Assembly (NCBI RefSeq): GCF_003576315.1
Contig: NZ_QWFZ01000032.1
Span: forward strand, 1-64,000
Direction of reading: 5' to 3'
DNA from: Henriciella mobilis
GTDB taxonomy: Bacteria; Pseudomonadota; Alphaproteobacteria; Caulobacterales; Hyphomonadaceae
DNA length: 64,000 nt
Part shown: in pieces, positions 20,446 through 63,826 of the stretch
How positions within the stretch are numbered: the first letter of the stretch is position 1
Layout: the number at the start of each line of letters is the position of its first letter
The notes under the pieces: generated by a model
What the model saw: only the letters and a program-made list of their open reading frames with translations
Databases searched by the model: none
Told to the model about the DNA's origin: nothing
Program-made: the position numbers and the translations under genes

Positions 20446-20569
20446 CGGTGTCTCCAATGCGCATGGGACCAAGCCTGCCGCAAATGGGAGCGATCAGCCT
20501 TTATGGTGATACGGCATGGACGCCACCTTCCCTCACTCATTACACCGGGAACTTACACAGCCGCCGTTT

Positions 20570-20597: not shown

Positions 20598-20626
20598 GCG
20601 GGTTTGCTCCGCTCTAGGGTCGGGTG

Positions 20627-21295: not shown

Positions 21296-21371
21296 GCTCA
21301 CTGCCAGGCGGTTTGGCGCCGCGACGTACCGATCTTGCAACGCACACGCCTCGGTCCACGCCATCACGGTT

Positions 21372-22409
21372 TCAATAGAGCGCCGATCCAATACCGAGGG
21401 CGGCATTGGTCTTCGCGATGGATTTTTGTGAATCTGTCGAAAGCCCTGTCAGCGCCCTGATCGCATCAATCGTTTCCGGGATGACGATCGCCTGATTGTC
21501 GACCATATAGGCATAAAAGAGTTCATTATTCTGAATCGTAACCAGGTCTTCCCAAAGAGCGACTTCGTATAGGTTGTCATTTGGACGTTTCAGGTCGGCC
21601 ATGAGTTCCTTGACACTGTTTATACCCGTCAGTCCGTCGTCCAGTCTGACCATGGCGATACGCGTCGAAGAGTGAAATGCCGCCAATACCTCCTCTCGGT
21701 CGGCGGCGCGCGACAGTTCAACGTTCCAATAATGCAGATGCGCAAGTGTTTCCGGCACCTTGACCGCCATCGTCACGACATCGAAATCCGGATCGACGCT
21801 TTGGGCATCCGGGCCTTGATGGCTTGGAATGCTTTGTTCCGGGACTAGCGTGTTCATGATGCCGCTCTGATGGCTTTCCCAGGGATCGGTGGCGCGGCGC
21901 AAAAGCGTGCCGCGCGCCTTTTTGAGCAAACCTGCCCGTTTCAGCGCGCCGAGCGTTCGAACAATCGACGTCGTGTTGCAGGAGACAATCCGCGTTTCAT
22001 ATCTGCCCACAGCGCTGTCAAAATTCGATTCGGCGACGAATGAGTGCTCGGTAAGGGCGTGGGGTTCGCCACCTTGTACAATGAATCTGAGCCCCCGCTT
22101 TCGGAAGAGAGCAACATTTCCGGTTGCAACATGTTTCGGTGTGCAATCGACGACAATATCTGCCTCGTCCAGGAGGTCATCCAAATTGCCTGACAGTACT
22201 ATACCCGCTTTGCTCATCGATGTGTGCGCCTTTGGGGTTGCCGCAAAGACTCGATAGCCTCGCTGGTTCGCGACACGCAGCCGCCAGTCAACAGATGTAT
22301 CAGCGATGCCTGCCAGCTGCATATCGTCCTGGCGTGTCACGGCATCGGCAACGCGTTTGCCGATGACACCGTAACCGTTTACGGCGACCCGGATTGACTT
22401 GTCAGACAT
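21372..22409 (-). CDS. gap: Type II (archaeal-type) glyceraldehyde-3-phosphate dehydrogenase
   Basis: Oxidises glyceraldehyde 3-phosphate to 1,3-bisphosphoglycerate with NAD(P). The 345 residues follow the archaeal class: VAVNGYGVIGKRVADAV at the N-terminus, IVVDCTPKHVATGN, and the active-site Cys in SCNTTSIVRTLGALKRAGLL. Bacterial type I enzymes have SNASCTTN and a different N-terminus, so this is a type II enzyme. Its start overlaps the end of the D-2-hydroxyacid dehydrogenase gene by 8 bp, so triose oxidation and reduction of the 2-oxoacid are coexpressed. Confidence 0.9.
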   Translation of the reverse strand: MSDKSIRVAVNGYGVIGKRVADAVTRQDDMQLAGIADTSVDWRLRVANQRGYRVFAATPKAHTSMSKAGIVLSGNLDDLLDEADIVVDCTPKHVATGNVALFRKRGLRFIVQGGEPHALTEHSFVAESNFDSAVGRYETRIVSCNTTSIVRTLGALKRAGLLKKARGTLLRRATDPWESHQSGIMNTLVPEQSIPSHQGPDAQSVDPDFDVVTMAVKVPETLAHLHYWNVELSRAADREEVLAAFHSSTRIAMVRLDDGLTGINSVKELMADLKRPNDNLYEVALWEDLVTIQNNELFYAYMVDNQAIVIPETIDAIRALTGLSTDSQKSIAKTNAALGIGSALY

Positions 22410-23442: not shown

Positions 23443-23743
23443 CACTCTGAACCATGCTCCTCGATGGCGACAACCTGTACGAAACTGAAGCCGGGCCGCC
23501 GCGGATTCAGCGCGTTCTTTCGCAGAGGCAACCCAGGCGATCGGGGGCCTTCCCGGTGCGAACTGGCTCATTTGGCTCAAAGTAAATGACGGTTTTTTCC
23601 GACGCCTGTGCTCAGCATGTTTCATGAAAGACTAATACAGATACGCGGCAGTGGTCCGGCGCACTCATACGCAGACGAAATTCTTCACGAGGCATGATGC
23701 TGCGCAGAACTGATCACCAGCCCCCATCGCGGGAAAAGCGCTC
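23443..23743. other. Divergent intergenic region between the D-2-hydroxyacid dehydrogenase and nhaA
   Basis: About 300 bp holding the promoters of both genes. I find no FNR-type box, repeat or RNA gene in it. The dehydrogenase frame stays open as far as 23625, so part of this region could be a coding extension, but it reads as non-homologous. Confidence 0.4.
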
Positions 23744-31745: not shown

Positions 31746-33566
31746 ATGCCAGATGATCAACGTATGACAGCTAAAAAACCCCGCAAAGCCAAACGCTCTG
31801 ATCCCAAAAAGAAAGCGTCCAAGAGCGCCCGCCGGGCGCAATCAAGGCCGGAGTCCGCAAAGCCCATTCAAGCCTCGTCCCGGCCCAGCCTGCCAGACGC
31901 CGCTGCTTATGGGGTTGATCTCATGCAGAGACAAACTCTGTTCTTTGACGCGTTGCGCCAGCGCGCCAACACAATGCTCGCCCATGAGCGAGACGGCATG
32001 CCACCTGTCTTGAAGTTCAAGTATGAGCTCGTGGCGGACGCAGCGACATTTGAACCTGCGTGCAATTATCAACTTCTAAAAATACTCGAGATTGGCGATA
32101 TCTGCCTCGACGATTGTCTTGATCCAGACAAACCACCCGTGATCATTATCGATCCCCGCGCGGGTCATGGCCCCGGCATTGGCGGATTCAAAGACGATTC
32201 TGAAGTCGGCATCGCTCTACATGAAGGCTACCCCGTATACTTCGTCGTGTTCACGCCTGACCCTGTTTCCGGTCAAACGCTAGCCGATGTGTTGGCGGGC
32301 CTGCGCCAGTTTGTAGAACTCGTGGCCGAGCGACATGATGGCGAGGCGCCAGTGCTCTATGGCAATTGCCAAGGCGGATGGGCGGCGGCACTTCTGGCGG
32401 CTGATTGCGAAGGCCTTGCCGGACCGATTGTGATGAACGGGTCACCGCTCTCCTATTGGGCCGGTGAACCCGGTGCCAATCCGATGCGGCTTGCGGCAGG
32501 ATTCCTCGGAGGGGCCTGGATCAATCACTTCTTGTCTGATCTCGGAAATGGCCGGTTCGATGGCGCCTGGCTGGTCCAGAATTTCGAAACCCTCAAACCT
32601 GAAGGGGCAATCTTCCGGAAATATGCCGATCTGTTTGAAAACGTCGATACAGCCGCCGACAGGTTCCTGGATTTCGAGCGTTGGTGGGGCGGCTTCTACC
32701 GCCTGAGCCGCGAAGAGATTCTTGCGATTGTCGAAAACCTCTTTATCGGCAACCGGCTTGAAAAAGGTCTGGTGAAACTCGGGGCCCATTGTGAGATTGA
32801 TTTAAAACAGATCCGCAATCCTCTCGTCATCTTCGCCTCACATGGCGACAATATCACCCCGCCACATCAGGCACTTGGTTGGATCCCAGCGGTTTATGAG
32901 ACGACCGAGGCACTCATCGCAGCCGATCAACGCATTGTCTATCTGATCAATCAACATGCCGGGCATCTCGGCATCTTTGTATCTGCGAGTGTCGCGCGCC
33001 TCGAACATCGCGCGATGCTGGAAAACCTTTCCGATATCGAAGCGCTGGAGCCTGGGCTCTATGAAATGAGGATCGATAATCCGACCGGCGATCCTGATTG
33101 CGACCACGACCAGTACATTGTGCGGTTTGAACCCCGCCGGGTTGAGGACCTGGTATTCGAAACCCAGCCTGAGGCATTTGAGCGTGTCGGGCGTCTGTCG
33201 GCGCAATTGGAGACGGCTTATTCGAACTTCGCCAGCCCGTGGGTGCGCGCCTGGTCTAATCCGGTCACAGCAGAGCTTATGAAATGGTCTCATCCGATGC
33301 GGGTGACACGCTACATGTTCTCAGAACGGTTCAATCCAGCTATGGCGATGACCGCCGCGTTTGCACCCATGGTTCGCGCCAATCGAAAGGCTGTCAATGA
33401 GGACAATCGCTTTCGCACAGCTGAAAAGATGGGCGTCGACTGGATCGAGACCGGCCTGACCCGCATGCGCGAGTCTCGCGATGCCGCATCCGAACTGGCC
33501 TTCAGCTGGCTCTATGACTGGCCCGTATTGCCTGAACCTATAAAGGACGAGGCGGCAAAGAAATGA
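31746..33566 (+). CDS. DUF3141 alpha/beta-hydrolase, PhaC-like
   Basis: 606 residues. A Lys/Arg/Ser-rich tail (~1-45) leads into a DUF3141 domain related to polyhydroxyalkanoate synthase: VIIIDPRAGHGPGIGGF, a nucleophile elbow GNCQGGW with Cys at the catalytic place, the acid segment IFASHGDNITPP and the His in INQHAGHLG. Proteins of this family accompany phosphotransacetylase and acetate kinase, as here; the role may lie in polyhydroxybutyrate or acyl-CoA metabolism, but the reaction is not established. It overlaps ackA by 4 bp (ATGA). Confidence 0.85.
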   Translation: MPDDQRMTAKKPRKAKRSDPKKKASKSARRAQSRPESAKPIQASSRPSLPDAAAYGVDLMQRQTLFFDALRQRANTMLAHERDGMPPVLKFKYELVADAATFEPACNYQLLKILEIGDICLDDCLDPDKPPVIIIDPRAGHGPGIGGFKDDSEVGIALHEGYPVYFVVFTPDPVSGQTLADVLAGLRQFVELVAERHDGEAPVLYGNCQGGWAAALLAADCEGLAGPIVMNGSPLSYWAGEPGANPMRLAAGFLGGAWINHFLSDLGNGRFDGAWLVQNFETLKPEGAIFRKYADLFENVDTAADRFLDFERWWGGFYRLSREEILAIVENLFIGNRLEKGLVKLGAHCEIDLKQIRNPLVIFASHGDNITPPHQALGWIPAVYETTEALIAADQRIVYLINQHAGHLGIFVSASVARLEHRAMLENLSDIEALEPGLYEMRIDNPTGDPDCDHDQYIVRFEPRRVEDLVFETQPEAFERVGRLSAQLETAYSNFASPWVRAWSNPVTAELMKWSHPMRVTRYMFSERFNPAMAMTAAFAPMVRANRKAVNEDNRFRTAEKMGVDWIETGLTRMRESRDAASELAFSWLYDWPVLPEPIKDEAAKK

Positions 33567-34798
33567 GCGCCCTCGACACCCCCCAGCGCGAAAGTCATCG
33601 CGTCCTCACCGTCAATAGCGGGTCTTCAAGCCTGAAAATCGCGCTCTTCCGGGTCGGAAACGACGTGGTCAAGACAATGTCGGGCGCCGTCACCGGCATT
33701 GGCGCATCAGAGGCGAGAATGTCAGCTGAGACCGCTTATGGCGACACACTTTGGGACGAACGCACCTGCTGCATCAACCACCCCGTTGCGCTGGAAACCT
33801 TCTTTCATGAGATGGCCGCTCATGTCGATCTCGGCGGCATTTCTGCGGTGGGACACCGGGTTATGCATGGAGGTCCCGACTACACAACGGCCCAGCGTCT
33901 GACTCCGAGAGTCGAAGCGGATCTGCGCGAACTGATTCCATTGGCGCCGCTGCATATGCCTGCAAACCTTGATGGCATCGTTGCCACGCGCCTGCGTTTA
34001 CCGAATGCGATGCAATATGCCTGTTTTGATACGGGCTTTCATGCAGACATGCCGATCGCGGCCCAACGCACAGGACTGCCGCCTGCGATGGAAGACAGAT
34101 ATGTCCGCCGGTTCGGCTTTCATGGCCTCTCCTACGCATTTATTGTCTCAGATCTTGCCGCCCGCGCCGGTGAGGCGATGTCCAGGCAACGTCTGCTGGT
34201 TGCGCATCTCGGTGCGGGCGCAAGTATGGCCTCAATCGAGAATGGCCAAACCATAGATACAAGCACGGGATTTTCGGCGCTTGCGGGACTGCCCATGGCG
34301 ACCCGAAGCGGCGATGTCGATCCCGGGCTGCTCTTATACCTCATACTGGAAAAAGGCTGGGCCCCATCAGTCTTGCACGACCAGCTTTATCATGGCGCAG
34401 GCTTGCTTGGGCTTTCGGGTCTGAGCGGTGATGTAAAAACTCTGCTCAAAACAGACGACCCGCGCGCGAGCGACGCGCTTGCGCAATTTGCCTATCAAGC
34501 TCGCAAGCAAGCTGGCGCACTGATCACCGCCATGGGCGGTGTTGACCGGATCATCTTTACCGGCGGCGTTGGCGAACACGCGCCCTCGATCCGCGCCGCC
34601 ATCTGCGAGCCACTTAGCGATCTCTATGGAATAAATTTTGACACCCGAGCAAATGATCTGGGTGAAACGTGTATTTCAAAGCCGGACAGTTCGGTGATTG
34701 TCGAAACGGTTCACACTGACGAGGCGATGATGATCGCCCGTTACGGACGCGCGATGCTTGAAGCCACCCCAGTGCAGATAGAGCGCCGGGTCTCATGA
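33563..34798 (+). CDS. ackA: Acetate kinase
   Basis: Makes ATP from acetyl phosphate. The 411 residues start LTVNSGSSSLKIALF, then HRVMHGG, FDTGFHADMP, RRFGFHGLSY and FTGGVGEHAPSIRA, all diagnostic for the acetate/propionate kinase family. It overlaps DUF3141 and the phosphotransacetylase gene by ATGA on both sides. It would also serve the phosphoketolase at 57.6 kb, which yields acetyl phosphate. Confidence 0.95.
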   Translation: MSALDTPQRESHRVLTVNSGSSSLKIALFRVGNDVVKTMSGAVTGIGASEARMSAETAYGDTLWDERTCCINHPVALETFFHEMAAHVDLGGISAVGHRVMHGGPDYTTAQRLTPRVEADLRELIPLAPLHMPANLDGIVATRLRLPNAMQYACFDTGFHADMPIAAQRTGLPPAMEDRYVRRFGFHGLSYAFIVSDLAARAGEAMSRQRLLVAHLGAGASMASIENGQTIDTSTGFSALAGLPMATRSGDVDPGLLLYLILEKGWAPSVLHDQLYHGAGLLGLSGLSGDVKTLLKTDDPRASDALAQFAYQARKQAGALITAMGGVDRIIFTGGVGEHAPSIRAAICEPLSDLYGINFDTRANDLGETCISKPDSSVIVETVHTDEAMMIARYGRAMLEATPVQIERRVS

Positions 34799-35859
34799 CT
34801 GGTTTTCGAGATTTTGCCGACCTCAAGACCGCTGCCGACTCAGGACCGCCCGTGAAGGTCGCCATTGTCTGTGCGGCGCAACGAGACGTCCTACTCTCGG
34901 TCGACGAAGCCGTTAAGCGCGGCTGGATCCATCCAATCCTGATCGGCGACCCTGATGCGATCAAGGCCGAAGCCGAGGCGGCAAATCTCACATTCCATCC
35001 CGATCAGGTCTTGCCCGCCTGGAATGAGGCAGAAGCAGCCCAACGCGCAGCCGGTTTACTGAAATCGGGCAGCACGCATGCCGCCATGAAAGGCCTGATC
35101 CATACCGACGTCTTGCTAAAAGAACTGCTCAACGCCAATGCTGGTCTGCGTCAGCCTGGAGCGCGGGTCAGCCATGTCTTTCTGGCGGACATTCCAGCCT
35201 ATCCGAAACTGCTTGCGATTACAGATGCCGCAGTCAACATCGCCCCGGATTTGGGCGCGAAAGCCGCTATCCTGCAGCACGCTATCGATCTTATGGTTTC
35301 TATTGGTATCGACCAGCCCAAAGCCGCAATCCTTTCAGCAATTGAGACTGTCAATCCGCTGATCAGTTCCAGCCTTGATGCCGCGGCACTCTCGGTCATG
35401 TCCCTGCGCGGTCAGGTGCGCGGCGCAGTCGTTGACGGACCGCTCGCCTTTGACAACGCAATTTCGCTTAAAGCCGCGGAAATCAAAGGCATTGCCTCGC
35501 CTGTGGCTGGGGATGCCGACATTCTACTCGTCCCAGATCTCGTTTCTGGCAATATCCTCGCTAAGAATCTGGAATATATGGCTGACGCGATGCTTGCCGG
35601 CCTGGTGCTTGGCCTGAACGCACCCATCGTCTTGCCATCGCGTGCCGATCCGGTGAACGCACGGCTCGCAGGTCTGGCGCTGGCGCGCCTTAGCCTAGCC
35701 GCAAAGGACCGCAAATCCGCGACGCGAGACAAAGCCCCGGTCTGGCCGGTGCACGCAACGCGCAGCTCACCTTTACCGGAAGCGGACTGCTGCCCGCCCA
35801 GCCATCCCACGCCAACCTCCCCCACATCACTCAATGGAGACGCTCATGCCAAGTCATGA
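34795..35859 (+). CDS. Phosphate acetyl/butyryltransferase
   Basis: Interconverts acyl-CoA and acyl phosphate. The 354 residues show the Pta/Ptb fold: AIVCAAQRDVLLSVDEAVKRGWI, MKGLIHTDVLLKELLN, VSHVFLADIPAYPKLLAITDAAVNI and VDGPLAFDNAISLKAA. The C-terminal ~45 residues (after LARLSLAAK) are Pro/Ser-rich, unlike the family, and overlap the thiolase start; a frameshift near the end could have made this tail. Acetyl or butyryl preference cannot be told. Coupled to ackA (ATGA). Confidence 0.9.
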   Translation: MTGFRDFADLKTAADSGPPVKVAIVCAAQRDVLLSVDEAVKRGWIHPILIGDPDAIKAEAEAANLTFHPDQVLPAWNEAEAAQRAAGLLKSGSTHAAMKGLIHTDVLLKELLNANAGLRQPGARVSHVFLADIPAYPKLLAITDAAVNIAPDLGAKAAILQHAIDLMVSIGIDQPKAAILSAIETVNPLISSSLDAAALSVMSLRGQVRGAVVDGPLAFDNAISLKAAEIKGIASPVAGDADILLVPDLVSGNILAKNLEYMADAMLAGLVLGLNAPIVLPSRADPVNARLAGLALARLSLAAKDRKSATRDKAPVWPVHATRSSPLPEADCCPPSHPTPTSPTSLNGDAHAKS

Positions 35860-37036
35860 CCCCGTTATCTGCGCGCCAGTGCGCACCGCCATCGGCGCCT
35901 TTGGCGGTAGTTTGAAAAACGTCCCGGCGTCCGATCTTGGCGCTATAGCGATCAAGGCCGCTCTGGAACGGGCAGGACTTGCACCGGATCGGGTCGATAC
36001 CGTTATTATGGGCCAGGTTCTGCAAGCCGGCGCCGGAATGAACCCGGCGCGTCAGGCAGCGATAGGTGCGGGTCTTCCTGTCAACGTCCCCGCGATGACC
36101 GTCAACCGGGTCTGCGGATCCGGCGCGCAGGCGGTCATAACCGCCGCGCAAGACGTCATGCTTGGCCACGCGGCGTGCGCCGTCGCTGGCGGCATGGAGA
36201 ATATGGACCAAGCCCCGTTTCTGCTTGGCAAAGCGCGTTACGGCTATCGTCTGGGCGACGGGGCGCTCATTGACAGTCTTCTTAGGGACGGGCTGAACGA
36301 TGCCTTTTCCGGCGAGCATTCCGGCTGGCATACCGAAGACTTAGCCGAACAGAACCAAATCAGCCGTGCCGCTCAGGATGCCTGGGCGTTGCGTTCGCAA
36401 AGCCGGTTCTCGAAAGCCCAGAGTGACGGTCTTTTCGACGCCGAGATTGTGCCCGTTGAGATGAAAACCCGTAAAGGGATTTCGGTATTCGATCGGGACG
36501 AGCACAATCGCCCGGATACGACTCTAGACAGTCTTGCGCATCTGAAGCCGGCCTTCCGAGAGCATGGAACGATCACAGCCGGGAATGCTCCCGGATTGAA
36601 CGCGGGCGCTGCTGCAATGATCGTTGCTGACCGGGCCTGGGCAGAGACAAACCAGCTGCAGCCTGCGGTCCGGATTGCCGGCATGGGCGTCGGCGCCGTC
36701 GAACCCGGACTGTTCGGCCTTGGTCCTGTACCTGCTGTGAAACAGGCATTGGAGCGGGCCGCCTGGCCACTTGCATCGGTGGAACGGGTCGAAATTAACG
36801 AGGCCTTCGCGGCCATTGCCGTCGCTTTGGTCGGCGAGCTGGGATTCTCCGAGGACATAGTGAATGTCGAGGGCGGCGCCATTGCACATGGCCATCCAAT
36901 CGGCGCGACGGGCGCTGTTCTGTCCGTACGGCTGATCCATGCCATGCAACGAGACAATCTTAAGCGCGGCATCGTCACCCTCTGCATTGGCGGCGGACAG
37001 GGCGTCGCGCTCGCGCTCGAACGTATCCCATCCTGA
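35846..37036 (+). CDS. Acetyl-CoA acetyltransferase (thiolase)
   Basis: Condenses or cleaves acetoacetyl-CoA. The 396 residues carry the nucleophile Cys90 in VNRVCGSGAQAV, EINEAFAAIAVAL, GGAIAHGHPIGATGA and the second active Cys in CIGGGQGVAL, the thiolase II set. The start at 35846 has GGAGA 8 bp before it. It overlaps the preceding gene's end by 14 bp. With DUF3141, Pta and AckA it could turn polyhydroxybutyrate-derived acetoacetyl-CoA into acetyl phosphate and ATP, or run the other way. Confidence 0.93.
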   Translation: MPSHDPVICAPVRTAIGAFGGSLKNVPASDLGAIAIKAALERAGLAPDRVDTVIMGQVLQAGAGMNPARQAAIGAGLPVNVPAMTVNRVCGSGAQAVITAAQDVMLGHAACAVAGGMENMDQAPFLLGKARYGYRLGDGALIDSLLRDGLNDAFSGEHSGWHTEDLAEQNQISRAAQDAWALRSQSRFSKAQSDGLFDAEIVPVEMKTRKGISVFDRDEHNRPDTTLDSLAHLKPAFREHGTITAGNAPGLNAGAAAMIVADRAWAETNQLQPAVRIAGMGVGAVEPGLFGLGPVPAVKQALERAAWPLASVERVEINEAFAAIAVALVGELGFSEDIVNVEGGAIAHGHPIGATGAVLSVRLIHAMQRDNLKRGIVTLCIGGGQGVALALERIPS

Positions 37037-37082
37037 CCCGGCGCATCTCCCCCCAACTGCCCCGACGCCGGTTAACAGGGAA

Positions 37083-37123
37083 CGCCGTCTCTCACGATTG
37101 CCTCCGTGAGGGACGGCGGCTTT
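37083..37123 (+). terminator. Stem-loop between thiolase and fabI
   Basis: CGCCGTC...GACGGCG outer stem with CTCACG/CGTGAG inner stem and a loop ATTGCCTC, followed by GCTTT. A good intrinsic terminator shape with a short T-run, so fabI may have its own promoter or be fed by read-through. Confidence 0.6.
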
Positions 37124-37153
37124 GGCTGCGTATTATTCTGCAAGGAGCTGGAT

Positions 37154-37942
37154 GTGAGCACACCCGATTGTGATCTTCGCGGAAAAACCGCACTGATTGT
37201 CGGCATTGCGAATAGTGATAGTCTGGCCTGGGCGGCGGCCACGTCCCTTCGCGGTGCAGGCGCGCGCCTGGCGATCACCTATTTGAACGAGAAGGCTCGC
37301 CCGCATGTTGAACCTTTAGCGAGAAAGGCAGATGCAGATCTCATTCTCGAATGCGATGTCACCAAACCTGGATCGCTGGACGCTGTCTTCGACGCGGTCG
37401 CAGCAAAATGGGATCGGCTTGATCTTGTCTTTCACGGGATTGCAAGTGCGCCAAAATCTGATCTTCAGGGGCGTTTGACAGACTGTTCGGCCGACGGTTT
37501 CGCAGCCGCCATGACGGTGTCTTGCTATTCGCTCCTTCATATGGCGCGGCGGGCTGAACCATTAATGCGACGCGGCGGCTCTCTGATCACGCTCAGTTTC
37601 TATGGCTCAGAAAAAGTCGTTGATCACTATAATGTCATGGGCCCGGTCAAAGCTGCGCTTGAAAGCGCTGTACGCTACCTTGCCCATGAGCTCGGACCCG
37701 CCGGCATCCGCGTCAATGCCATTTCCGCCGGACCCGTTGCGACAAGAGCCGCGTCTGGCCTCACCCATTTCGAAGAATTGCTAAACGAGGCCGCAGCCAA
37801 ATCACCGCTGCGACGAACAATCGATGCCAGCGAAGTCGGAAAAGCGGCTTTGTTTTTGGCCAGCGATCTGTCCAGCGGCGTGACCGGTGAAATCGTTCAT
37901 GTCGATGCCGGGTTCCATATCGATGGCATGATTTTTCATTGA
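37154..37942 (+). CDS. fabI: Enoyl-ACP reductase, FabI type
   Basis: Reduces enoyl-ACP in fatty acid synthesis. The 262 residues contain the atypical Rossmann motif GIANSDSLAWA (~16-26), FHGIASAPK and the catalytic stretch HYNVMGPVKAALE (Tyr and Lys). The second Tyr position reads LSFYGSEK. It starts at GTG with AAGGAG 7 bp upstream; a longer frame overlaps the terminator stem-loop. Located in an accessory cluster, so it may be a second copy rather than the housekeeping one. Confidence 0.9.
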   Translation: MSTPDCDLRGKTALIVGIANSDSLAWAAATSLRGAGARLAITYLNEKARPHVEPLARKADADLILECDVTKPGSLDAVFDAVAAKWDRLDLVFHGIASAPKSDLQGRLTDCSADGFAAAMTVSCYSLLHMARRAEPLMRRGGSLITLSFYGSEKVVDHYNVMGPVKAALESAVRYLAHELGPAGIRVNAISAGPVATRAASGLTHFEELLNEAAAKSPLRRTIDASEVGKAALFLASDLSSGVTGEIVHVDAGFHIDGMIFH

Positions 37943-54676: not shown

Positions 54677-55552
54677 TTATTTCGAGAGTCTGACCCTTTC
54701 ATAGTCCAAGGTTTGATGTCTGGCGAGCGCGCCGGGAGTGGAGCCCCCGACAAGCTCGAGCGACCGGCGCGCTGCGGGCGTCAGCCCGCCCAGCGATGAG
54801 TGAGGCCGGTGATGATTGTAATCGTGCCGCCAGCGCCCCAGTACCTTTCTGGCGTGGGAGAGACTGTCGAAGACTTCCTCGTTGAGGCATTCGTCACGGA
54901 GCTTGCCATTGAAGCTCTCGACGAAGCCGTTCTGCTGCGGCTTGCCCGGCGCGATGTAGTGCCAGGCGATGCCGGTCTCGTTCTGCCATTCCAGGATGGC
55001 GCGCGAGGTCAGCTCGGTCCCATTGTCCGAGACGATGGTCTCCGGCCGGCCATAGAGGCGGATGCAGCGATCAAGCTCCCGCGCCACACGCGCGCCTGAC
55101 AGGGAGGTGTCGGCCACCAGTGCCAGGCATTGCCGGGTATAGTCGTCGATCACGTTCAGCATCCGGAACCGCCGCGCCGGACCGAAGACATCAGACACAA
55201 AGTCAAGGCTCCAGCGTTTCGATGGACCGTCCGGGACAGGCATCGGCTCGCGCGTCCCGGTGGCGCGCTTGCGTCCCCGTCGTCGCTTCACCGCCAGGCC
55301 TTCCTCCCTGTAGAGGCGCCTCAGCTTCTTGTGGTTCATAACGATGCCTTCGCGTTCGAGCATCAAGCCGATGCGGCGATAGCCGAACCGGCGGCGCGTT
55401 GCCGCGATCTCGCGCATACATTTGCGGATCTCCGGATTATCCGGCTCCGCTTCTCGCCTGACAGTCTTCGGATCGACGCTGACCAGTCGGCAGGCGCGAC
55501 GCTGGGAGATGTCATGATCCGACATCGCTCCGAGCGCCGCCACCCGCTTCAA
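54677..55552 (-). CDS. IS3 transposase OrfB (DDE integrase domain)
   Basis: 291 residues from this start. HTH_21-type region [23 protein letters not shown], then the rve catalytic core: D in [11 protein letters not shown] in [10 protein letters not shown] in [14 protein letters not shown], and [15 protein letters not shown] at the end. The frame is open upstream to GTACTGACGACG, so translation most likely arises by -1 frameshift from orfA at GGGAAAG (about 55570) to give OrfAB, as is known for IS3 elements. Confidence 0.93.
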
Positions 55553-56151: not shown

Positions 56152-57435
56152 TCAGAACTGATACACCGGCGCAAACCCGCCGCCGCTGGTGCGGAAGTTG
56201 GTCGTCTGTCCCTGATAAACGCGGGCAGCCAACAGCAGTGTTTTCCCGGCATAAGTGTAAAGCCGAACGTCATACTTCAGTGTTACCGGCTCTTGGTCGA
56301 CAGTTACAGCGCGCACCGTCGGCGGGACCAGGGCTTGAGCAATATAATCCCCTTCCAGGATTGCCGACCAGACGCGTTTCGTCAGCTTGTCACCACGATA
56401 AGCAGCACGGCTGCCAAAACCCGCGGCGGGTTTAAAGAAGTATCCTCGCCGCGTCGCCCAAAGCTCATCAGCGACGTCTTCGGTAACGCGCCGCGTATCG
56501 GGGATCGCCGCAAGCACCTGTCGGTCTGCGTCATCCGCGCCAAACGATTTAAGCGAATCTGGATCGCTAAGCCAAATCAGGTTTCGTTTGTTGGCATAGA
56601 GCGCGTGGTGGCGCGGCGCCGGACTGATAACCACCGCCTCGTCGAGGAGCGCGGCGCGCAGATGTGCATGACCTGGCTCGGACAGATCAAAATCCGTTAG
56701 CCGATTATAGACCATGTCGATAGCTCTTCCACCGTGCGCAAGATCGCCGTTCTCATAGGTGAGCGCCTCGGGGTCAAGGATGAGGGTTTCGATGCCGTTG
56801 CGGGCCAACAAGTCTCTCGCGAGCACCATGTCCGGATAGAGATACTGCCCAGATGCGTCCTGATCGAGAATAGCCAACCTGCCCGGACGGCCCTCCCGTC
56901 CCGTCGCCTGCCACTCAGAGATGAAGCTTTCAACAAGGACTGCATCGATTGCGTCCGAATCCGCGAGACGCGCGTCTCCGCAAGCCTCAGCATGTTTCGC
57001 CGCAGCGCGCTGGAGCTCGCTGACCAGGAAGGCTCCGCCGGCATTTGTATTTATCTCAATGAGTTTGGGTCCGTCTTCAGAGATGTGAAAATCGTATCCC
57101 ATGAACAGACCGCGTGCGCCGGTCTGAGCGCTGAAAATATTATCATTTGAGCGTGCCAGGGCGACCTCTTGATAAGACGTCAGGGATGCCACCGCTTCAA
57201 TTGCAGACACTTGCGCCTGCATCGCCCGCAGGTCCGATGGTGAGACAAAAACGGCCGTGGCCGCAAATAGATTGGGCCGCGCCGCCAGAAGCGCCGAGAG
57301 CTCATCATTGCCGGCATGATCCAAAATGGCTTCATCAAGATCGGCCCTGCCGAGCGTCATGCAAAAGCAGGACTTGTTGAGGGAAATCAAATCACTTGCG
57401 CCAGGCAGTTCGCAGGTTTTATCGCACCGCATCAA
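56152..57435 (-). CDS. ATP-grasp-like protein of unknown function
   Basis: 427 residues. GLFMGYDFHISEDGPKLIEINTNAGGAF and, towards the end, RRGYFFKPAAGFGSRAAYRGDKLT, LKYDVRLYTYAGKTLLLAARVYQGQ and NFRTSGGGFAPVY look like the nucleotide and metal-binding parts of an ATP-grasp or glutathionylspermidine-synthase-like ligase. The substrate cannot be told. It is divergent from the phosphoketolase operon with a 190-bp shared region, and its 3' end points to the IS scar. A Cys-rich start (MMRCDKTCELPG, SLNKSCFCMTLG) is unusual. Confidence 0.55.
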   Translation of the reverse strand: MMRCDKTCELPGASDLISLNKSCFCMTLGRADLDEAILDHAGNDELSALLAARPNLFAATAVFVSPSDLRAMQAQVSAIEAVASLTSYQEVALARSNDNIFSAQTGARGLFMGYDFHISEDGPKLIEINTNAGGAFLVSELQRAAAKHAEACGDARLADSDAIDAVLVESFISEWQATGREGRPGRLAILDQDASGQYLYPDMVLARDLLARNGIETLILDPEALTYENGDLAHGGRAIDMVYNRLTDFDLSEPGHAHLRAALLDEAVVISPAPRHHALYANKRNLIWLSDPDSLKSFGADDADRQVLAAIPDTRRVTEDVADELWATRRGYFFKPAAGFGSRAAYRGDKLTKRVWSAILEGDYIAQALVPPTVRAVTVDQEPVTLKYDVRLYTYAGKTLLLAARVYQGQTTNFRTSGGGFAPVYQF

Positions 57436-57625: not shown

Positions 57626-60013
57626 ATGACAGAACAATGGACCAGCGGATATGGCGTGATCGTCCATGATACCGAGACGCAGCAGCGACTTCAGAGTATC
57701 TTGCAGAACGCCGACCGCGGGCTTTTGGCGCTCACACAAACCGAGGCCGCAGACGTGTTCTCGGCGACGGACAGACTCGCGAATGCGGCAATGTGGCTCA
57801 TCGCGCACATGTCATATGCACGTCGCGTCGACCTGTCTGGCGCACCCCTGAAGGCGGGGGATTTCAAACCCTCGCCAGAAGGCCATATGGGCGGATCGTT
57901 TAACATGGCGATCGCATTTGCAGGCTATCTCGCCGCCAATGCGTTGAGTGGCCATACCCGTGCTTGGACCCTTGGGCAGGGTCATTGCGTCGCTGCAATT
58001 GAAGCCATCAACGCACTCACAGGCGATGTCTCAGCCGCGCAGCAAGGGCGCTATGATCGCAGTGAAGCAGGCCTTTCCCGGCTCGTCAGTGACTTTTACG
58101 GCTATGCGATCACCCCCGATGGCCGCCCCGGCGTGCCGCTCGGCAGCCACGTCAACCCGAATACAGCTGGCGGGTTGTCGGAAGGCGGGTATCTTGGATT
58201 CACCAGCCTGCAATATATCCACATGCCATTGCTGGGCGAGCGCCTTGTCGCCTTTCTGAGCGACGGCGCTTTCGAAGAGCAGCGCGGATCCGACTGGGCG
58301 CCGCGCTGGTGGCGCGCCAGCGATAGTGGTTTCGCCGTGCCTGCGATGGTGCTGAATGGCCGGCGGATCGAACAGCGTACCGAAATCAGTCAGGAAGGCG
58401 GACTTGATTGGTTAGTCAAGCATTTGACCTTAAGCGGGTTCGACCCAATCATTGTCGATGGCCATGATCCCCTCTCTTATGCATGGGGCATATTGGAAGC
58501 GGAGGCCCGGCTTTCAAAACTGAGCGATACGGACGGCCCCTACCCCGCGCGGCTGCCTTATCTGATTGCGCCCTGCATCAAGGGTTTTGGGTTTCCAGGG
58601 GCTGGGGGAAATAGCGCGCACAATCTCCCACTGGAAGGAAATCCGCGCACCAATAAGGGCGCACGCGTGCTCTTCAATGAAGGCGTACAAGCGCTCTACA
58701 CACCGCCTGACATGCTTGATGATGCGGTCCGGACCCTAAGCGTCCACAAAATACAAAACCGCATGTTGGAAAGTCAGAACGCCCTCGCCGTTCGCAAGGT
58801 TTCTGATCCCGTATTGCCTAGGTCAGACGCGCGTTCGCTCGGCACCCCCCGCCCAAATTGCGCAATGGACGCGATCGATCAGTGTTTCACCGAAATTGTG
58901 CGCGCCAATCCGCATTTGCGGGTCCGCGTTGCAAACCCTGACGAGCTTCGCAGCAACCACATGCCGCTGACGCTCGAGATGCTCAAGCATCGGGTCAATG
59001 CGCCTGAGCCCGGCACGCCTGAATCCAAAAATGGTCGCCTCATCACGGCGCTGAATGAAGAGGCTGTGATAGCTGCAGCCCTTGGCAATAAGGGCGGGCT
59101 GAATCTCGCAGTGAGCTACGAGGCCTTCGCCATGAAGATGCTCGGCGCGCTGCGCCAGGAGATTATCTTCGCGCGTCGACAGAAAGAACTCGGTCAAATT
59201 CCGGGCTGGATCAGCGTCCCGCTTATTGCAACTTCGCATACTTGGGAAAATGCCAAGAATGAACAATCCCACCAGGACCCGACACTGCCCGAAGCGCTGC
59301 TCGGAGAAATGTCGGAGACCGCTCGGGTGATCTTCCCGGTCGACGCGCCAAGCGCTGCTGAAGCGCTGCGCAACATCTATCGTGGGCGCGGCGAAATCGC
59401 CTGCCTCGTGACACCGAAACGAGATGTCCCAAACCTTCTATCCGAAGAGGAAGCCGAACACGCGCTGGAAAATGGAGCGCTCCACATCGCCGGTGATATC
59501 ATGGCAGCCGACATTCAATTGGTCGCGATCGGCGCTTATCAGGCTCACGAAGCCCTCGCCGCATTCCAGCGACTCACTGAACGCGGCGTGCCATGCTGTG
59601 TCACCTTGATCCTTGAACCGGGCAGGTTCCGCATGGGACGCGACGCAATGGAGCAGGCATTCACAGCGAGCGAAGACAGGCTTGAAGCCCTTTTCCCGCG
59701 CGGGCTGGCAAGAGTGCTGCTGACGCATACGCGGCCCGAACCGATGACGGGTGTGCTGAGACGACTGGATGGCGGGCCGGAACAATTGCGCGCGCTCGGC
59801 TACATTTCTCGCGGCGGAACATTTGATGTCGCAGGCATGCTGTTCGCCAATCGCTGCACCTGGGCTCATACTGTCGATGCCGCCATGGCGTTGCTGCCGA
59901 AAAAAACTCTCGATCTCCTTTCGGAGGATGAACGGCGCGCCATTGATGGGCAAGGCGATCCATCCGCTCTCGAGCGCTCAAAACCTGTCCTGCGCCGGGA
60001 GCACGCATCATGA
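57626..60013 (+). CDS. xfp: Phosphoketolase (xylulose 5-phosphate/fructose 6-phosphate)
   Basis: Splits xylulose 5-phosphate or fructose 6-phosphate with phosphate into acetyl phosphate and a triose or tetrose phosphate, using thiamine diphosphate. 795 residues, normal length. Family marks: EGHMGGSFNMAIAFAGYLAANAL, GQGHCVAAIEAINALTG, GSHVNPNTAGGLSEGGYLGF, FLSDGAFEEQRGSDWAPRWW, KGFGFPGAGGNSAHNLPL and HTWENAKNEQSHQDP. The ATG at 57626 is preceded by GGGGG about 12 bp before. First gene of an operon; its stop overlaps the hydrolase start (ATGA). Acetyl phosphate would feed the acetate kinase at 33.6 kb. Confidence 0.93.
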   Translation: MTEQWTSGYGVIVHDTETQQRLQSILQNADRGLLALTQTEAADVFSATDRLANAAMWLIAHMSYARRVDLSGAPLKAGDFKPSPEGHMGGSFNMAIAFAGYLAANALSGHTRAWTLGQGHCVAAIEAINALTGDVSAAQQGRYDRSEAGLSRLVSDFYGYAITPDGRPGVPLGSHVNPNTAGGLSEGGYLGFTSLQYIHMPLLGERLVAFLSDGAFEEQRGSDWAPRWWRASDSGFAVPAMVLNGRRIEQRTEISQEGGLDWLVKHLTLSGFDPIIVDGHDPLSYAWGILEAEARLSKLSDTDGPYPARLPYLIAPCIKGFGFPGAGGNSAHNLPLEGNPRTNKGARVLFNEGVQALYTPPDMLDDAVRTLSVHKIQNRMLESQNALAVRKVSDPVLPRSDARSLGTPRPNCAMDAIDQCFTEIVRANPHLRVRVANPDELRSNHMPLTLEMLKHRVNAPEPGTPESKNGRLITALNEEAVIAAALGNKGGLNLAVSYEAFAMKMLGALRQEIIFARRQKELGQIPGWISVPLIATSHTWENAKNEQSHQDPTLPEALLGEMSETARVIFPVDAPSAAEALRNIYRGRGEIACLVTPKRDVPNLLSEEEAEHALENGALHIAGDIMAADIQLVAIGAYQAHEALAAFQRLTERGVPCCVTLILEPGRFRMGRDAMEQAFTASEDRLEALFPRGLARVLLTHTRPEPMTGVLRRLDGGPEQLRALGYISRGGTFDVAGMLFANRCTWAHTVDAAMALLPKKTLDLLSEDERRAIDGQGDPSALERSKPVLRREHAS

Positions 60014-61386
60014 CCCTCACCCTGACCAGTCTTGGCGGGGCTGGAACCGTGACCGGCTCACGCCATCTTCTTGAATATGAAGGTCAGCGTATACTGATCG
60101 ATTGTGGTCTGTTCCAGGGCTATAAGGCGTTGCGCCAGCGCAACTGGGCGCCCTTCCCGATTGATCCAAAATCCATCGACGCCATTGTCCTCACGCACGC
60201 CCACATTGATCATAGTGGTTATCTGCCAAAACTGGTCAGAGAAGGTTATCGCGGTCCCGTTTATTGCTCGAGCGCGACCAAGGATCTTTGCGGAATCCTG
60301 CTGCGCGACAGCGCGTATATTTCAGAACGAGACGCCGAGCGGGCCAACCGCCTTCGCTACACCCGCCACAAACCGGCTCAGCCACTTTATACGATCGCCG
60401 ACGCCGAAGCGGCGATTGAAAAGCTCACCCCAATCGACTTTCACCAGGACGTTCATCTCGCGATTGGGGCCGATATCTATTTACGCCGCGCCGGGCATAT
60501 TCTTGGGGCATCGACCGTTGAAGTCCGTTGGGGCGGCAAAACCATTATCTTTTCTGGTGACCTTGGCCGCTATGACGACCCTTTCATGTTTGACCCTGAG
60601 CCGGTGCAAAATGCCGATTACGTCGTCATAGAGTCCACCTATGGAGATCGCACTCATCCGAAGCTCGATCCCATGGAACAGCTGGGTGACGTGATTGCAC
60701 GCACCGCCAGGCGCGGCGGGACAGTGGTTATTCCAGCCTTTGCGGTCGGGCGCGCTCAACTCATTCTCTACCATATCTGGATGCTCAAAAAAGCGGGACG
60801 GCTCGAGAATGTCGCGATCTATCTCGACAGCCCAATGGCGATAAACGCAACTGAACTTCTCTGCACACACCTCGATGATCACAGATTTGCGCGGCAGGTT
60901 TGTGAAGAGACTTGCGCGATTGCGACTTATGCGCGTGACGTCGACGCTTCAAAAGCCATTACCAATGATCTGATGCCAAAGGTTGTGATCGCAGCGAGCG
61001 GTATGATCACAGGCGGCCGCGTTCTGCACCATATTCAGGCATTTGGTGGAGACCGGAAAAATACGATCCTGTTTGCTGGATATCAGGCCGGTGGCACGCG
61101 TGGAGACAAGATTCTCAAGGGCGCAAGCAAGGTCAAAATGTTCGGCCACGACGTTCATATCGGCGCCGAGATCGCCAGCCTGCCCGCTTTGTCAGCCCAT
61201 GCGGATGCCGACGAGCTGATCTCCTGGCTTGGCGGCTTTGAAAAGCGTCCGGCAAAAGCATTTATTGTTCACGGCGAACCCGATGCATCAGAGGCGCTAA
61301 GCACGCGTATGCAGGATGAGCTCGGCTGGCGCACTGATGTTGTTGCCATCGAGAAGGCCTATGAGCTTGGAAGCGGCGACGAATGA
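60010..61386 (+). CDS. Beta-CASP metallo-beta-lactamase hydrolase, RNase-like
   Basis: 458 residues. The metal site is LTHAHIDHSGYLPKLV (HxHxDH), then GHILGASTVEVRWGGKTI, STYGDRTHP, FAVGRAQLILYHIWML and a C-terminal RMMBL part with IASLPALSAHADADELISWLGG and AFIVHGEPDASEAL. This is the CPSF/RNase J-related 'MBL fold, RNA specificity domain' family, whose members cut or degrade RNA. Its stop overlaps the AMP-phosphorylase gene. In this operon it could release nucleotides from RNA, an inference. Confidence 0.9.
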   Translation: MTLTLTSLGGAGTVTGSRHLLEYEGQRILIDCGLFQGYKALRQRNWAPFPIDPKSIDAIVLTHAHIDHSGYLPKLVREGYRGPVYCSSATKDLCGILLRDSAYISERDAERANRLRYTRHKPAQPLYTIADAEAAIEKLTPIDFHQDVHLAIGADIYLRRAGHILGASTVEVRWGGKTIIFSGDLGRYDDPFMFDPEPVQNADYVVIESTYGDRTHPKLDPMEQLGDVIARTARRGGTVVIPAFAVGRAQLILYHIWMLKKAGRLENVAIYLDSPMAINATELLCTHLDDHRFARQVCEETCAIATYARDVDASKAITNDLMPKVVIAASGMITGGRVLHHIQAFGGDRKNTILFAGYQAGGTRGDKILKGASKVKMFGHDVHIGAEIASLPALSAHADADELISWLGGFEKRPAKAFIVHGEPDASEALSTRMQDELGWRTDVVAIEKAYELGSGDE

Positions 61387-62903
61387 CGCAGGATAATCAA
61401 CCCCACGCCGCCACGACCCTGTCCGCGCGACGCCTGAAATGGCATGCTCAGGACGAAGCGATCATTCTAATGCGGACCGACTGCCCGGTCTGCCGTTCAG
61501 AAGGACTGACGTCGCGCGCCCGTGTGCTGATCAGTTGCGACGGGCGGGACGTGGTCGCGACCCTGCACCAGATCGACGATGATTGGCTGGCCCTTAGCGA
61601 GGCTGGTCTTTCTGAAGCGGCTTGGAGCCGGCTTGGTGCCGAGCCCGGCGCAGATCTTAAAGTCAGCCACGCTCCAACGCTTCGGTCTCTCTCTGATGTG
61701 CGTCAACGGATGACCGGCAAACGGCTGCCAAGCGATGGATTTGACCGGATCGTGACTGATATCGCCGCCGGACTGTATTCTGATATTCATCTGGCCGCCT
61801 TTATCTCAGCCTGTTCCACGCTGAGCCTCGACATAGACGAAATCACCTCGCTGACCGGCGCCATGGTGAACGTCGGAGAGCAACTCGACTGGAATACCGA
61901 CATGGTCATCGACAAACACTGCGTGGGCGGCCTACCCGGAAATCGCACGACGCCGATTGTTGTTGCGATCTTGGCCAGCCTGGGTTTGACGGTCCCAAAG
62001 ACCTCCTCGCGCGCCATCACATCGCCCGCCGGAACTGCAGATACGATGGAGACGCTCACCCAAGTCGATCTGTCACTGCCAGACATCAGGCGGGTTGTTG
62101 AAACGGAAGGTGGATGCCTTGCCTGGGGCGGCGCGGTCCAGCTCAGCCCGGCTGATGATATTCTCATCCGCATTGAACGGGCCCTCGACATCGACGCCGA
62201 AGGTCAGCTGATCGCGTCTGTTTTGTCAAAGAAGATCGCCGCCGGCGCGAGCCATGTGGTGCTCGACTTGCCCGTCGGACCAACCGCTAAACTGCGTAGT
62301 GCTGCCGGTGCCCGCGCCCTTGCCCAGCACATGACGATCGTTGCACGTGGGTTTGGCCTCAAGACCCATTGCGTGTTCAGCGACGGGCTCCAACCCGTCG
62401 GGCGCGGCATCGGACCGGCGCTCGAAGCCTGGGACGTGCTCAGGGTCTTGCAAAGAAGCAAAAGCGCGCCGCCAGATCTTCGCGAACGGGCGCTGACGCT
62501 GGCTGGCGCCGCCCTTGAACTTGCGGGCCGTGCCAAACCGGATACCGGAGCGGCCATGGCTCAGGACGCGCTCGACAATGGATCTGCCTGGTCGAAGTTT
62601 CAGGCCATATGCGCCGCTCAAGGCGGTTTGCGCGAACCACCACGCGCAGCGCAAACTGCGCCCGTCGCGGCAATTCGGTCAGGGGTCTTGAAAGCAATCG
62701 ATAATAGAAAGCTCTCCAGGCTCGCAAAACTTGCTGGTGCTCCCGAACGCCCGGCCGCTGGTCTGACCGTTCACAAACGCCTAGGCGAACAAATCACGAT
62801 TGGTGAGCCGCTTCTCACCATCCACGCAGAGGCGTCGGGCGAGATCGACTATGCCATGAGCTACGCTCACGCCAATGCCGGCCTCTTCACCATTGAGGGT
62901 TAA
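61383..62903 (+). CDS. AMP phosphorylase-type nucleoside/nucleotide phosphorylase
   Basis: 506 residues: an N-terminal double-psi domain of ~80 residues, absent from bacterial thymidine phosphorylases, then the phosphorylase fold. VIDKHCVGGLPGNRTTPIVV and KTSSRAITSPAGTADTMETL follow the archaeal AMP phosphorylase pattern (DKHxxGGxPGN, SSRAITSxAGTADTME) rather than the thymidine one (DKHSTGGVGD). AMP phosphorylase turns NMP and phosphate into ribose 1,5-bisphosphate and a base. Annotated copies are usually called thymidine phosphorylase. Overlaps the preceding stop (ATGA). Confidence 0.82.
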   Translation: MTQDNQPHAATTLSARRLKWHAQDEAIILMRTDCPVCRSEGLTSRARVLISCDGRDVVATLHQIDDDWLALSEAGLSEAAWSRLGAEPGADLKVSHAPTLRSLSDVRQRMTGKRLPSDGFDRIVTDIAAGLYSDIHLAAFISACSTLSLDIDEITSLTGAMVNVGEQLDWNTDMVIDKHCVGGLPGNRTTPIVVAILASLGLTVPKTSSRAITSPAGTADTMETLTQVDLSLPDIRRVVETEGGCLAWGGAVQLSPADDILIRIERALDIDAEGQLIASVLSKKIAAGASHVVLDLPVGPTAKLRSAAGARALAQHMTIVARGFGLKTHCVFSDGLQPVGRGIGPALEAWDVLRVLQRSKSAPPDLRERALTLAGAALELAGRAKPDTGAAMAQDALDNGSAWSKFQAICAAQGGLREPPRAAQTAPVAAIRSGVLKAIDNRKLSRLAKLAGAPERPAAGLTVHKRLGEQITIGEPLLTIHAEASGEIDYAMSYAHANAGLFTIEG

Positions 62904-62906
62904 CCC

Positions 62907-63767
62907 ATGACGATTTACATTCCGCTTCCCGGTAATGAAGCTATGGCTTCTGAGCTTGCCAAAATCACAAGTTCTGAACTTGGCACCCTTGAACACCGCA
63001 GATTCCCGGACGAAGAGACCTATGTGCGCCTCACCTCAGATGTCTCTGGAAAAGCAGTCGAACTGGTTTGCACGCTCGCCCGGCCTGACCCGCAATTGCC
63101 AGGACTTCTTTTTGCCGCTTATACAGCGCGCGAGCTTGGCGCCACATCGGTTGGGCTGATTGCCCCCTACCTTGCCTATATGCGTCAGGATAAGAGATTT
63201 TCAGACGGCGAGTCTGTGTCATCAGGACACTTTGCCAGATTGCTCTCAGGTGCGTTTGAAAGGGTGGTCACCGTCGATCCGCATTTGCACCGCATCCACG
63301 ATCTCAATGACGTTTTTTCAATCAATACAAAGGTTGTGCACGCCGCCCCGGCACTGTCCGATTGGATCAAGGCCCATGTCGACAAGCCGCTCATCATTGG
63401 CCCGGACGCTGAGAGCGAGCAATGGGTGTCCGACGTGGCCGACCGAGCGAGCGCCCCGCATCTTGTGCTCTCCAAAGTCCGCCATGGCGACCGCAATGTA
63501 GAAGTGACAGCGCCTGGCCTTAAAAACTGGACCGGCCATCAACCCGTTCTTGTCGACGACATTGCCTCTTCCGGGCGAACCATGATGGAAGCGGCCCGCC
63601 ACTTTGAGACCGCTGGCTTTGCAAAACCGGTCTGCGTGATCGTCCATCCGCTCTTTGCCGGCAATGCCTATGAGGACCTTAAGTCTGTCTCGACACGTGT
63701 CGTATCGACCAATGCGGTCCAACATGCCTCAAATGAGATTTCGATCACGCCCTTACTGATCGGCTAG
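62907..63767 (+). CDS. prs: PRPP-synthetase-like enzyme (short, archaeal-like form)
   Basis: 286 residues, shorter than the ~315 of housekeeping PRPP synthetase. RRFPDEETYVRL, PYLAYMRQDKRFSDGESVSSG, VDPHLHRIHDLNDVF and GPDAESEQWVSDVA match the family; the PRPP loop reads VLVDDIASSGRT instead of VDDxxDTGGT. It may make PRPP from ribose 5-phosphate, or act on ribose 1,5-bisphosphate; the reaction is not proven. It is 3 bp after the phosphorylase gene, and a terminator follows. Confidence 0.85.
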   Translation: MTIYIPLPGNEAMASELAKITSSELGTLEHRRFPDEETYVRLTSDVSGKAVELVCTLARPDPQLPGLLFAAYTARELGATSVGLIAPYLAYMRQDKRFSDGESVSSGHFARLLSGAFERVVTVDPHLHRIHDLNDVFSINTKVVHAAPALSDWIKAHVDKPLIIGPDAESEQWVSDVADRASAPHLVLSKVRHGDRNVEVTAPGLKNWTGHQPVLVDDIASSGRTMMEAARHFETAGFAKPVCVIVHPLFAGNAYEDLKSVSTRVVSTNAVQHASNEISITPLLIG

Positions 63768-63792: not shown

Positions 63793-63814
63793 GACCGGTC
63801 CCAACGGTCTTTTT
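63793..63814 (+). terminator. Intrinsic terminator of the phosphoketolase operon
   Basis: GACCG-GTCCCAA-CGGTC followed by TTTTT, 25 bp after the PRPP-synthetase stop. A short stem, but with a proper T-tract. Confidence 0.6.
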
Positions 63815-63826
63815 GATAGAAATCAA
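63813..63826 (+). promoter_or_regulatory. Perfect FNR box
   Basis: TTGAT-AGAA-ATCAA, exact match to the FNR/ANR consensus TTGAT-N4-ATCAA. A candidate -10 (TATCAA, 63848-63853) lies about 31 bp from the box centre, the class II activation layout. It would drive the truncated gene at 63916. Oxygen-limited induction is inferred. Confidence 0.75.

Follow-up and report, generated by a model that had tools for sequence, protein, structure and literature searches.

Strictly respiring bacteria have to survive a sudden loss of oxygen, and how they do so is a practical open question; a locus of Henriciella mobilis raises the further question of whether cells might burn the ribose of RNA for this purpose. 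The locus lies in the first 64,000 nucleotides of contig NZ_QWFZ01000032.1 (the whole stretch analysed, hereafter the window) and spans positions 57,626-63,767 of the forward strand, where four genes follow one another: a divergent phosphoketolase of 795 amino acids (57626..60013, with its ATG at 57626), a metallo-beta-lactamase/beta-CASP/RMMBL RNase-like protein of 458 amino acids (MBL, 60010..61386), an enzyme of the nucleoside monophosphate (NMP), or AMP, phosphorylase type of 506 amino acids (61383..62903), and an enzyme of 286 amino acids resembling phosphoribosyl pyrophosphate (PRPP) synthetase (Prs-like, 62907..63767). ATGA overlaps join the phosphoketolase to the MBL gene and the MBL gene to the phosphorylase, and a gap of 3 bp separates the phosphorylase from the Prs-like gene. 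The initial annotation, made from the sequence alone, had recognised these junctions, the four family identities and the PRPP loop VDDIASSGRT of the last protein; the coordinates were re-derived and hold, the Pfam and NCBIfam scans concur on the families (phosphoketolase, beta-CASP, AMP-phosphorylase type, Prs), and the loop is present. The four-gene operon is real, and the partnership of its genes is well established. The reading of the third gene as a bacterial NMP phosphorylase is strong, and a complete low-oxygen route from RNA to acetate seems plausible, at a likelihood somewhat short of even.

Linkage of the four genes

The surroundings of the phosphoketolase were inspected in the best 80 of 364 relatives, which were picked by similarity to the H. 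mobilis query, so that the resulting counts are skewed toward near relatives. Fifty-seven of the 80 loci, flanked by 6 kb or more on each side, were used for the linkage count; 21 had a short flank, and two (L096 and L109) had no phosphoketolase ORF in the gene clustering. All four core genes occur together at 34 of the 57, a result that answers the survey of gene order proposed in the initial annotation and sets aside the refuting condition given there, namely that the four would seldom be neighbours in other genomes. Five near-identical Henriciella/Hyphomonas loci are included in this count, as in the phosphorylase-column, motif, phosphoketolase-residue and Prs-loop counts reported below, and are excluded from the FNR-box count and from the correlation between phosphorylase and Prs-like divergence; without them, the four-gene count becomes 31 of 54. 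Taken singly, the partners are MBL (50 of the 57 loci), the phosphorylase (42), the Prs-like gene (36) and an ackA-family gene (19), and three loci have none of these. Several rearranged gene orders exist among the four-gene loci (e.g., PRS-XFP-MBL-TP and XFP-MBL-TP-PRS). The order of the four genes is not due to chance, and their linkage is widespread.

The same question was approached from the side of the phosphorylase in 299 genomes of Pseudomonadota, H. mobilis included. The phosphorylase is present in 36 of them, and a phosphoketolase of the H. mobilis clade (at least 776 bits, the next match scoring 82 bits) in 12, H. mobilis among them. In 32 independent phosphorylase loci, retrieved from 31 of the 32 phosphorylase genomes devoid of the clade phosphoketolase (G236, a fragment, was omitted), the Prs-like gene directly adjoins the phosphorylase on the same strand in 30 cases, whereas MBL is found at 14 loci and a canonical phosphoketolase at two. 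On this basis the phosphorylase and the Prs-like gene constitute the core, and MBL and phosphoketolase are frequent partners. The two exceptions to the adjacency are a truncated gene (L185) and a fusion with PhnN (L186). In the former (L185:9095-10969), the truncated phosphorylase gene reads on into other sequence, and a full-length MBL gene is adjacent. In another locus (L167:4900-10200), a canonical phosphoketolase lies near the phosphorylase-Prs pair, an arrangement that suggests an independent pairing of the two. The pairwise distances of phosphorylase and Prs-like proteins are strongly correlated (r 0.94 over 66 loci, a value reached in 0 of 999 permutations), host ancestry being included in this figure and expected to yield a part of it. 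All this considered, the two enzymes very probably act in one pathway.

The phosphorylase and its likely product

The phosphorylase exceeds the cut-offs of NF003338 (651 bits versus 434) and TIGR02645 (568 versus 434.6); since it scores 473.5 bits against TIGR03327, the AMP-phosphorylase equivalog whose cut-off is 535, it was not filed under that model. In a comparison relying on one reference of each kind, 36 near-invariant columns of the family (87 sequences) are shared only with the AMP phosphorylase of Thermococcus kodakarensis and four only with a pyrimidine phosphorylase, favouring the archaeal AMP/NMP type, as the initial annotation had it, over thymidine phosphorylase. An ordinary thymidine phosphorylase requires the phosphopentomutase DeoB downstream; DeoB is found in 57 of the 60 genomes having only thymidine phosphorylase versus one of the 31 having only the AMP-type enzyme (five further genomes harbor both phosphorylases, and four of these have DeoB).

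These data bear on the alternative that the gene encodes an ordinary thymidine or pyrimidine nucleoside phosphorylase devoted to nucleoside salvage and that its neighbours are unrelated to it. The best-scoring NCBI model does name the family thymidine phosphorylase; however, the median identity of the family is 42% to AMP phosphorylase versus 30% to pyrimidine phosphorylase, DeoB is absent from 31 of the 36 phosphorylase genomes, and both the conserved Prs partner and the PhnN fusion speak against it. The alternative is highly improbable, and assignment to thymidine phosphorylase was rejected on the column and DeoB counts.

It is known that archaeal AMP phosphorylase converts an NMP and phosphate to ribose 1,5-bisphosphate (R15P) (PMC8376864, PMC9700705), and that PhnN is an R15P kinase forming PRPP from it (PMC9700705). 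Natural fusions with PhnN at the front and the phosphorylase after it (L186:7925-10577 and L187-L195) exist in nine of 150 genomes belonging to a single family, and the PhnN domain exceeded its cut-off in the one fusion scanned (168.8 versus 156 bits); among the unfused loci from the same family search, a Prs-like gene is nearby in 10 of 11. Given the AMP-type columns, the prevailing absence of DeoB and the PhnN fusion in relatives, R15P is the likely product, in line with the initial annotation, and the enzyme of H. mobilis probably releases it from NMPs.

The Prs-like partner and the fate of R15P

The Prs-like protein scores 403.5 bits with NF005537 (cut-off 322) and 187.6 with TIGR01251 (cut-off 113). 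The ATP-site and catalytic residues are retained in its relatives (RQD in 74/74, the K.R loop in 74/74), whereas the segment that we take to be the pyrophosphate loop, SPDVGG in the canonical Prs of H. mobilis, reads GPDxES in 72 of the 74, and the canonical form [SA]PDxG occurs in none. That the phosphorylase is either fused to PhnN or paired with this protein suggests that its partner handles R15P or PRPP.

One might suppose that the phosphorylase, with the Prs-like enzyme or a fused PhnN, turns NMPs into PRPP or swaps their bases, serving the salvage of NAD or nucleotides rather than energy metabolism. The Prs family makes PRPP, and the PhnN-fused gene lies downstream of nadC on the same strand at 9/9 loci (directly adjacent in four, about 1 kb off in five). 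The product of nadC is a PRPP-using enzyme, and a route from NMP through PRPP to NAD is possible for the fused version; the activity reported for PhnN (PMC9700705) fits such a scheme. On the other hand, the genome of H. mobilis already contains one canonical Prs gene (399 bits) besides two of the cluster type, the altered loop sets the latter apart from the canonical enzyme, the Prs-like version keeps company with phosphoketolase, RNase and AckA, and a nadC relative was detected in just one of the 121 fetched loci, namely, the fusion locus itself. For the operon under study, this explanation appears unlikely.

Other known outlets for R15P were sought in the H. mobilis genome. The models of R15P isomerase and RuBisCO gave no match at E 0.001 in the whole genome, extending what the initial annotation had noticed in the window, and the archaeal conversion of R15P to ribulose 1,5-bisphosphate was rejected for this organism. 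Neither PhnN nor DeoB had a match over cut-off in the same genome; the sole PhnN match (36 bits), presumably a guanylate kinase, led to the PhnN route being discarded as well. In the 36 phosphorylase genomes, TIGR00511 (R15P isomerase) never exceeded its cut-off of 314 bits, its matches in 18 of them (139-187 bits) being presumably paralogues such as MtnA; PhnN passed its cut-off in eight, and RuBisCO occurs in 18, so it is not generally absent from genomes having the phosphorylase.

A more specific function can be imagined for the Prs-like enzyme, that is, an R15P:AMP phosphotransferase catalysing R15P + AMP -> ribose 5-phosphate (R5P) + ADP, a truncated reversal of the Prs reaction, one phosphate short. 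Such a reaction would suit the other genes of the operon; the assignment is quite doubtful. If it were true, the phosphorolysis of NMPs would be coupled to the formation of ADP, R5P would be freed for a specialised phosphoketolase, and cells would burn their own RNA for ATP at the loss of oxygen without RuBisCO or R15P isomerase; if false, the release of R5P would fall to a phosphatase or to the general pool.

The phosphoketolase and the RNase-like protein

The XFP domains of the phosphoketolase are over the Pfam cut-offs (PF03894, 131 bits versus 22; PF09364, 41 versus 23.7), while the scores with all six NCBIfam models listed for the family (PRK05261 subfamilies) remain far under theirs, the best reaching 132 bits versus 777. 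The protein forms a clade of its own, a divergence overlooked in the initial annotation, with members in Alpha-, Beta- and Gammaproteobacteria (among the best 80 of 364 relatives, the class being read from organism names). An identical phosphoketolase (100%) is encoded in a Henriciella aquimarina record (L035). A profile of 17 members retrieved phosphoketolases from PDB at E 3e-30 and transketolases at just 4e-4. The predicted AlphaFold model is mediocre (mean pLDDT 69.8) and was used for matching of the fold class alone; its 20 best fold matches are all phosphoketolases.

Residue numbers of the Bifidobacterium breve and B. longum enzymes were transferred to the H. mobilis protein by hand from the profile alignment. 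Eleven of the 16 positions checked (H64, H142, H320, H553, E479 and others) are invariant in 86/86 clade members; the four histidines appear in the titles of PDB phosphoketolase mutants, and for positions covered neither by those titles nor by published catalytic residues the roles are those that we assume. The equivalents of Y492, N540 and K593, also invariant in the clade, are named among the conserved catalytic residues of the Synechococcus phosphoketolase (PMC10365998). The core of the ATP-regulatory motif was found in 0/86 clade members versus 6/17 canonical phosphoketolases (a usable protein was obtained from 17 of 18 loci).

As regards the second gene, its metallo-beta-lactamase, Beta-Casp and RMMBL domains are all over the Pfam cut-offs, the nearest solved structure is the RNase TTHA0252 (E 8e-79), and 97% or more of the 81 relatives keep the metal-site motif HxHxDH, the RNase motifs being intact. 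The product is a putative RNase that would yield 5'-NMPs.

Expression at low oxygen

Published tables place proteins with these names among those responding to low oxygen. In a microoxia table of Bradyrhizobium diazoefficiens (PMC6515984), all four names appear, and the corresponding proteins and transcripts are increased: the MBL-fold protein bll3115 (protein log2 2.9, transcript 15.4-fold), the ribose-phosphate pyrophosphokinase bll3116 (4.4 and 7.7-fold), the thymidine phosphorylase family member bll3117 (2.1 and 5.1-fold) and the phosphoketolase bll2518 (4.3 and 8.2-fold). A gene table on anaerobic regulation in Pseudomonas aeruginosa lists PA3613 (phosphoketolase) and PA3614 (MBL) (PMC8575079), and tables of FixK targets include the putative phosphoketolase Rpal_1869, the effects on which vary with the condition (PMC3050613). 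The bll, PA and Rpal genes were matched to the present families by annotation name alone, and it is probable that they are relatives.

The proposed route and the evidence against it

Taken together, the data are compatible with a catabolic operon for nucleotide ribose at low oxygen, in which the beta-CASP enzyme would degrade RNA to 5'-NMPs and the phosphorylase would split these with phosphate into base and R15P, as its family, the DeoB pattern and the fusions suggest. The Prs-like partner, whose pairing is observed, might then convert R15P to a pentose monophosphate or link it to the PRPP/AMP pool; an ordinary isomerase and epimerase are assumed to lead to xylulose 5-phosphate, which the divergent phosphoketolase, to judge from its fold and catalytic residues, could cleave to acetyl phosphate and glyceraldehyde 3-phosphate. 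The last step, ATP and acetate from acetyl phosphate, would be carried out outside the operon by an acetate kinase (AckA, 33563..34798, forward strand; PF00871, 310 bits), placed by the initial annotation at 33.6 kb and located there. In genomes without a phosphoketolase, the usual pentose phosphate pathway would take up the pentose that is set free.

Several observations weigh against this scheme. An enzyme converting R15P to R5P was not identified, and what the Prs-like enzyme would do to R15P is a guess, worded too strongly in the initial annotation. Five of the 16 positions of the phosphoketolase are altered (Q321N in 85/86, R442 mostly H or K with R in six, Q546N, D547A/S/G and H548K), of which D547 corresponds to D538, likewise named among the conserved catalytic residues (PMC10365998). 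With 11 positions invariant and the fold preserved, the protein is a phosphoketolase in its overall fold and its catalytic core, but its pocket is rewired; since the changed residues belong to the substrate pocket, xylulose 5-phosphate is not assured as substrate, and the entry of pentose phosphate into this enzyme had also been worded too firmly. In addition, 24 of the 36 phosphorylase genomes lack any phosphoketolase and eight of the 12 clade-phosphoketolase genomes lack the phosphorylase; in two of the latter (G138 and G174), all three partners are missing from the surrounding 9 kb or so. The position of the PhnN-fused version beside nadC points to PRPP or NAD synthesis. As for regulation, bll3115-3117, and also bll2518, carry no mark in the B. 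diazoefficiens table for being a FixK2 target or for a change in soybean bacteroids (PMC6515984). FNR boxes upstream of the cluster were found at two of 115 loci versus 47 of 1680 control windows and are not enriched; control by FNR was dropped as evidence, even though the window has a downstream box and, some 235 bp before the start of the operon, a weak FNR-like box that deviates at one position (57377..57390, forward strand, from the box search).

The genomes with one half only indicate that the phosphoketolase is dispensable and the route not obligatory. They also lead to the idea of two independent modules in a low-oxygen island, sharing regulation without any flux from RNA to acetate: a phosphoketolase, with MBL and AckA, for fermentation or overflow of sugar phosphates, and a phosphorylase-Prs-MBL unit for nucleotide turnover. 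In some genomes (e.g., G023 and G058) the phosphoketolase is indeed beside MBL without the phosphorylase, and the H. mobilis genome, having a single phosphoketolase match, harbors elsewhere a second MBL-phosphorylase-Prs trio, followed by a convergent ackA-pta pair and overlooked in the initial annotation, that has no phosphoketolase of its own. The window also contains arginine deiminase, PPK2 and ackA-pta, which we regard as low-oxygen-type genes. Against such independence, there is overlap or almost no space between the four genes in the window, and they remain together at 34 of 57 loci despite rearranged orders. Moreover, any phosphoketolase and the phosphorylase co-occur in 12 of 299 genomes versus 5.9 expected (p 0.006), and the clade phosphoketolase co-occurs weakly with the phosphorylase, in four of 12 genomes versus 1.4 expected (p 0.04); relatedness is uncorrected in both cases, and because the genomes are not independent the p-values are indicative only. 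Two separate modules are possible, if somewhat unlikely.

The RNA-to-acetate reading of the initial annotation is retained in what concerns the linkage, the type of phosphorylase and the catalytic residues, and abandoned as an obligatory route. No description joining the four genes as a route was found in the literature searched, as the initial annotation had supposed; an earlier mention is possible in Aono 2012, in Wrighton 2016 or in the review devoted to ribosyl 1,5-bisphosphate. If the RNA-to-acetate route is true, ribosomal RNA would be an internal fuel from which a widespread gene set draws ATP and acetate by a defined route, bacterial R15P would acquire a catabolic role, and functions could be given to proteins at present annotated as thymidine phosphorylase, as ribose-phosphate pyrophosphokinase or as phosphoketolase.

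Other genes of the window

Besides the operon, genes for arginine deiminase, PPK2 and a GAPDH-like protein are found in the window of 64 kb together with ackA-pta, a content that fits a low-oxygen survival island. The phosphate acetyl/butyryltransferase gene (pta, 34795..35859, forward strand; PF01515, 118 bits) overlaps ackA, and both belong to an overlapping or closely spaced run (31746-37942) with genes for a DUF3141 protein, a thiolase-like protein (by eye) and an enoyl-ACP-reductase-type protein. The GAPDH-like gene (21372..22409, reverse strand; PF02800, 36 bits over 24.4), which we take to be of the archaeal type, might be a sink for glyceraldehyde 3-phosphate, and its relatives occur at 11 of the 80 phosphoketolase loci. 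It overlaps a 2-hydroxyacid dehydrogenase gene in the region 16311-23625, which also comprises arginine deiminase and a transporter-like gene (by eye), possibly fermentative genes.

Closer to the operon, a divergent gene (56152-57435, reverse strand) has no Pfam or NCBIfam match and is near the cluster in 19 of the 80 phosphoketolase loci; seven relatives of its product align at 46-79%, a profile compared with solved structures yielded chance-level matches only, and its motifs look ATP-grasp-like to us. An IS3-family transposase gene is also near the operon (54677-55552, reverse strand), and a small adjacent ORF resembles its partner (by eye). A perfect FNR-type palindrome (63813-63826) follows the operon, ahead of the next downstream gene.

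Comparison with known systems

The low-oxygen-activated (lxa) locus encodes M0300, a member of the MBL superfamily, and M0298, a putative phosphate acetyl/butyryltransferase (PMC6127331); the terms "phosphoketolase" and "thymidine phosphorylase" were both absent in a term search confined to the main text of that paper. The Anr and microoxia regulons share with the present operon the combination of phosphoketolase and MBL, as in the P. aeruginosa table (PMC8575079).

At the level of the single enzymes, the Prs-like protein resembles PRPP synthetase in the catalytic-loop Lys/Arg and in the RQD, FPD and PRPP motifs, and differs from it in the replacement of SPDVGG by GPDxES and in being an extra gene besides the canonical Prs encoded elsewhere in the genome. 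The phosphoketolase shares the fold, the catalytic histidines and the glutamate with the canonical xylulose/fructose enzymes of Bifidobacterium, Lactococcus and Synechococcus; it differs in its identity to them (about 25%), in the score, which drops where the clade ends from 776 bits to 82, in the pocket substitutions and in the lack of the ATP-regulatory motif.

With the archaeal NMP (AMP) phosphorylase and pentose bisphosphate pathway of T. kodakarensis, the operon has in common the type of phosphorylase and the archaeal core motifs, whereas here R15P isomerase is not over cut-off in the 36 genomes, RuBisCO has no match in the H. mobilis genome, the partner is Prs-like and the phosphorylase falls under the TIGR03327 cut-off. 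The closest bacterial counterpart is the RuBisCO/AMP nucleoside pathway of uncultivated phyla, as cited in PMC9700705, with which the proposed route would share the entry through AMP phosphorylase, the former being based on RuBisCO and the latter, in the reading preferred here, on a phosphoketolase.

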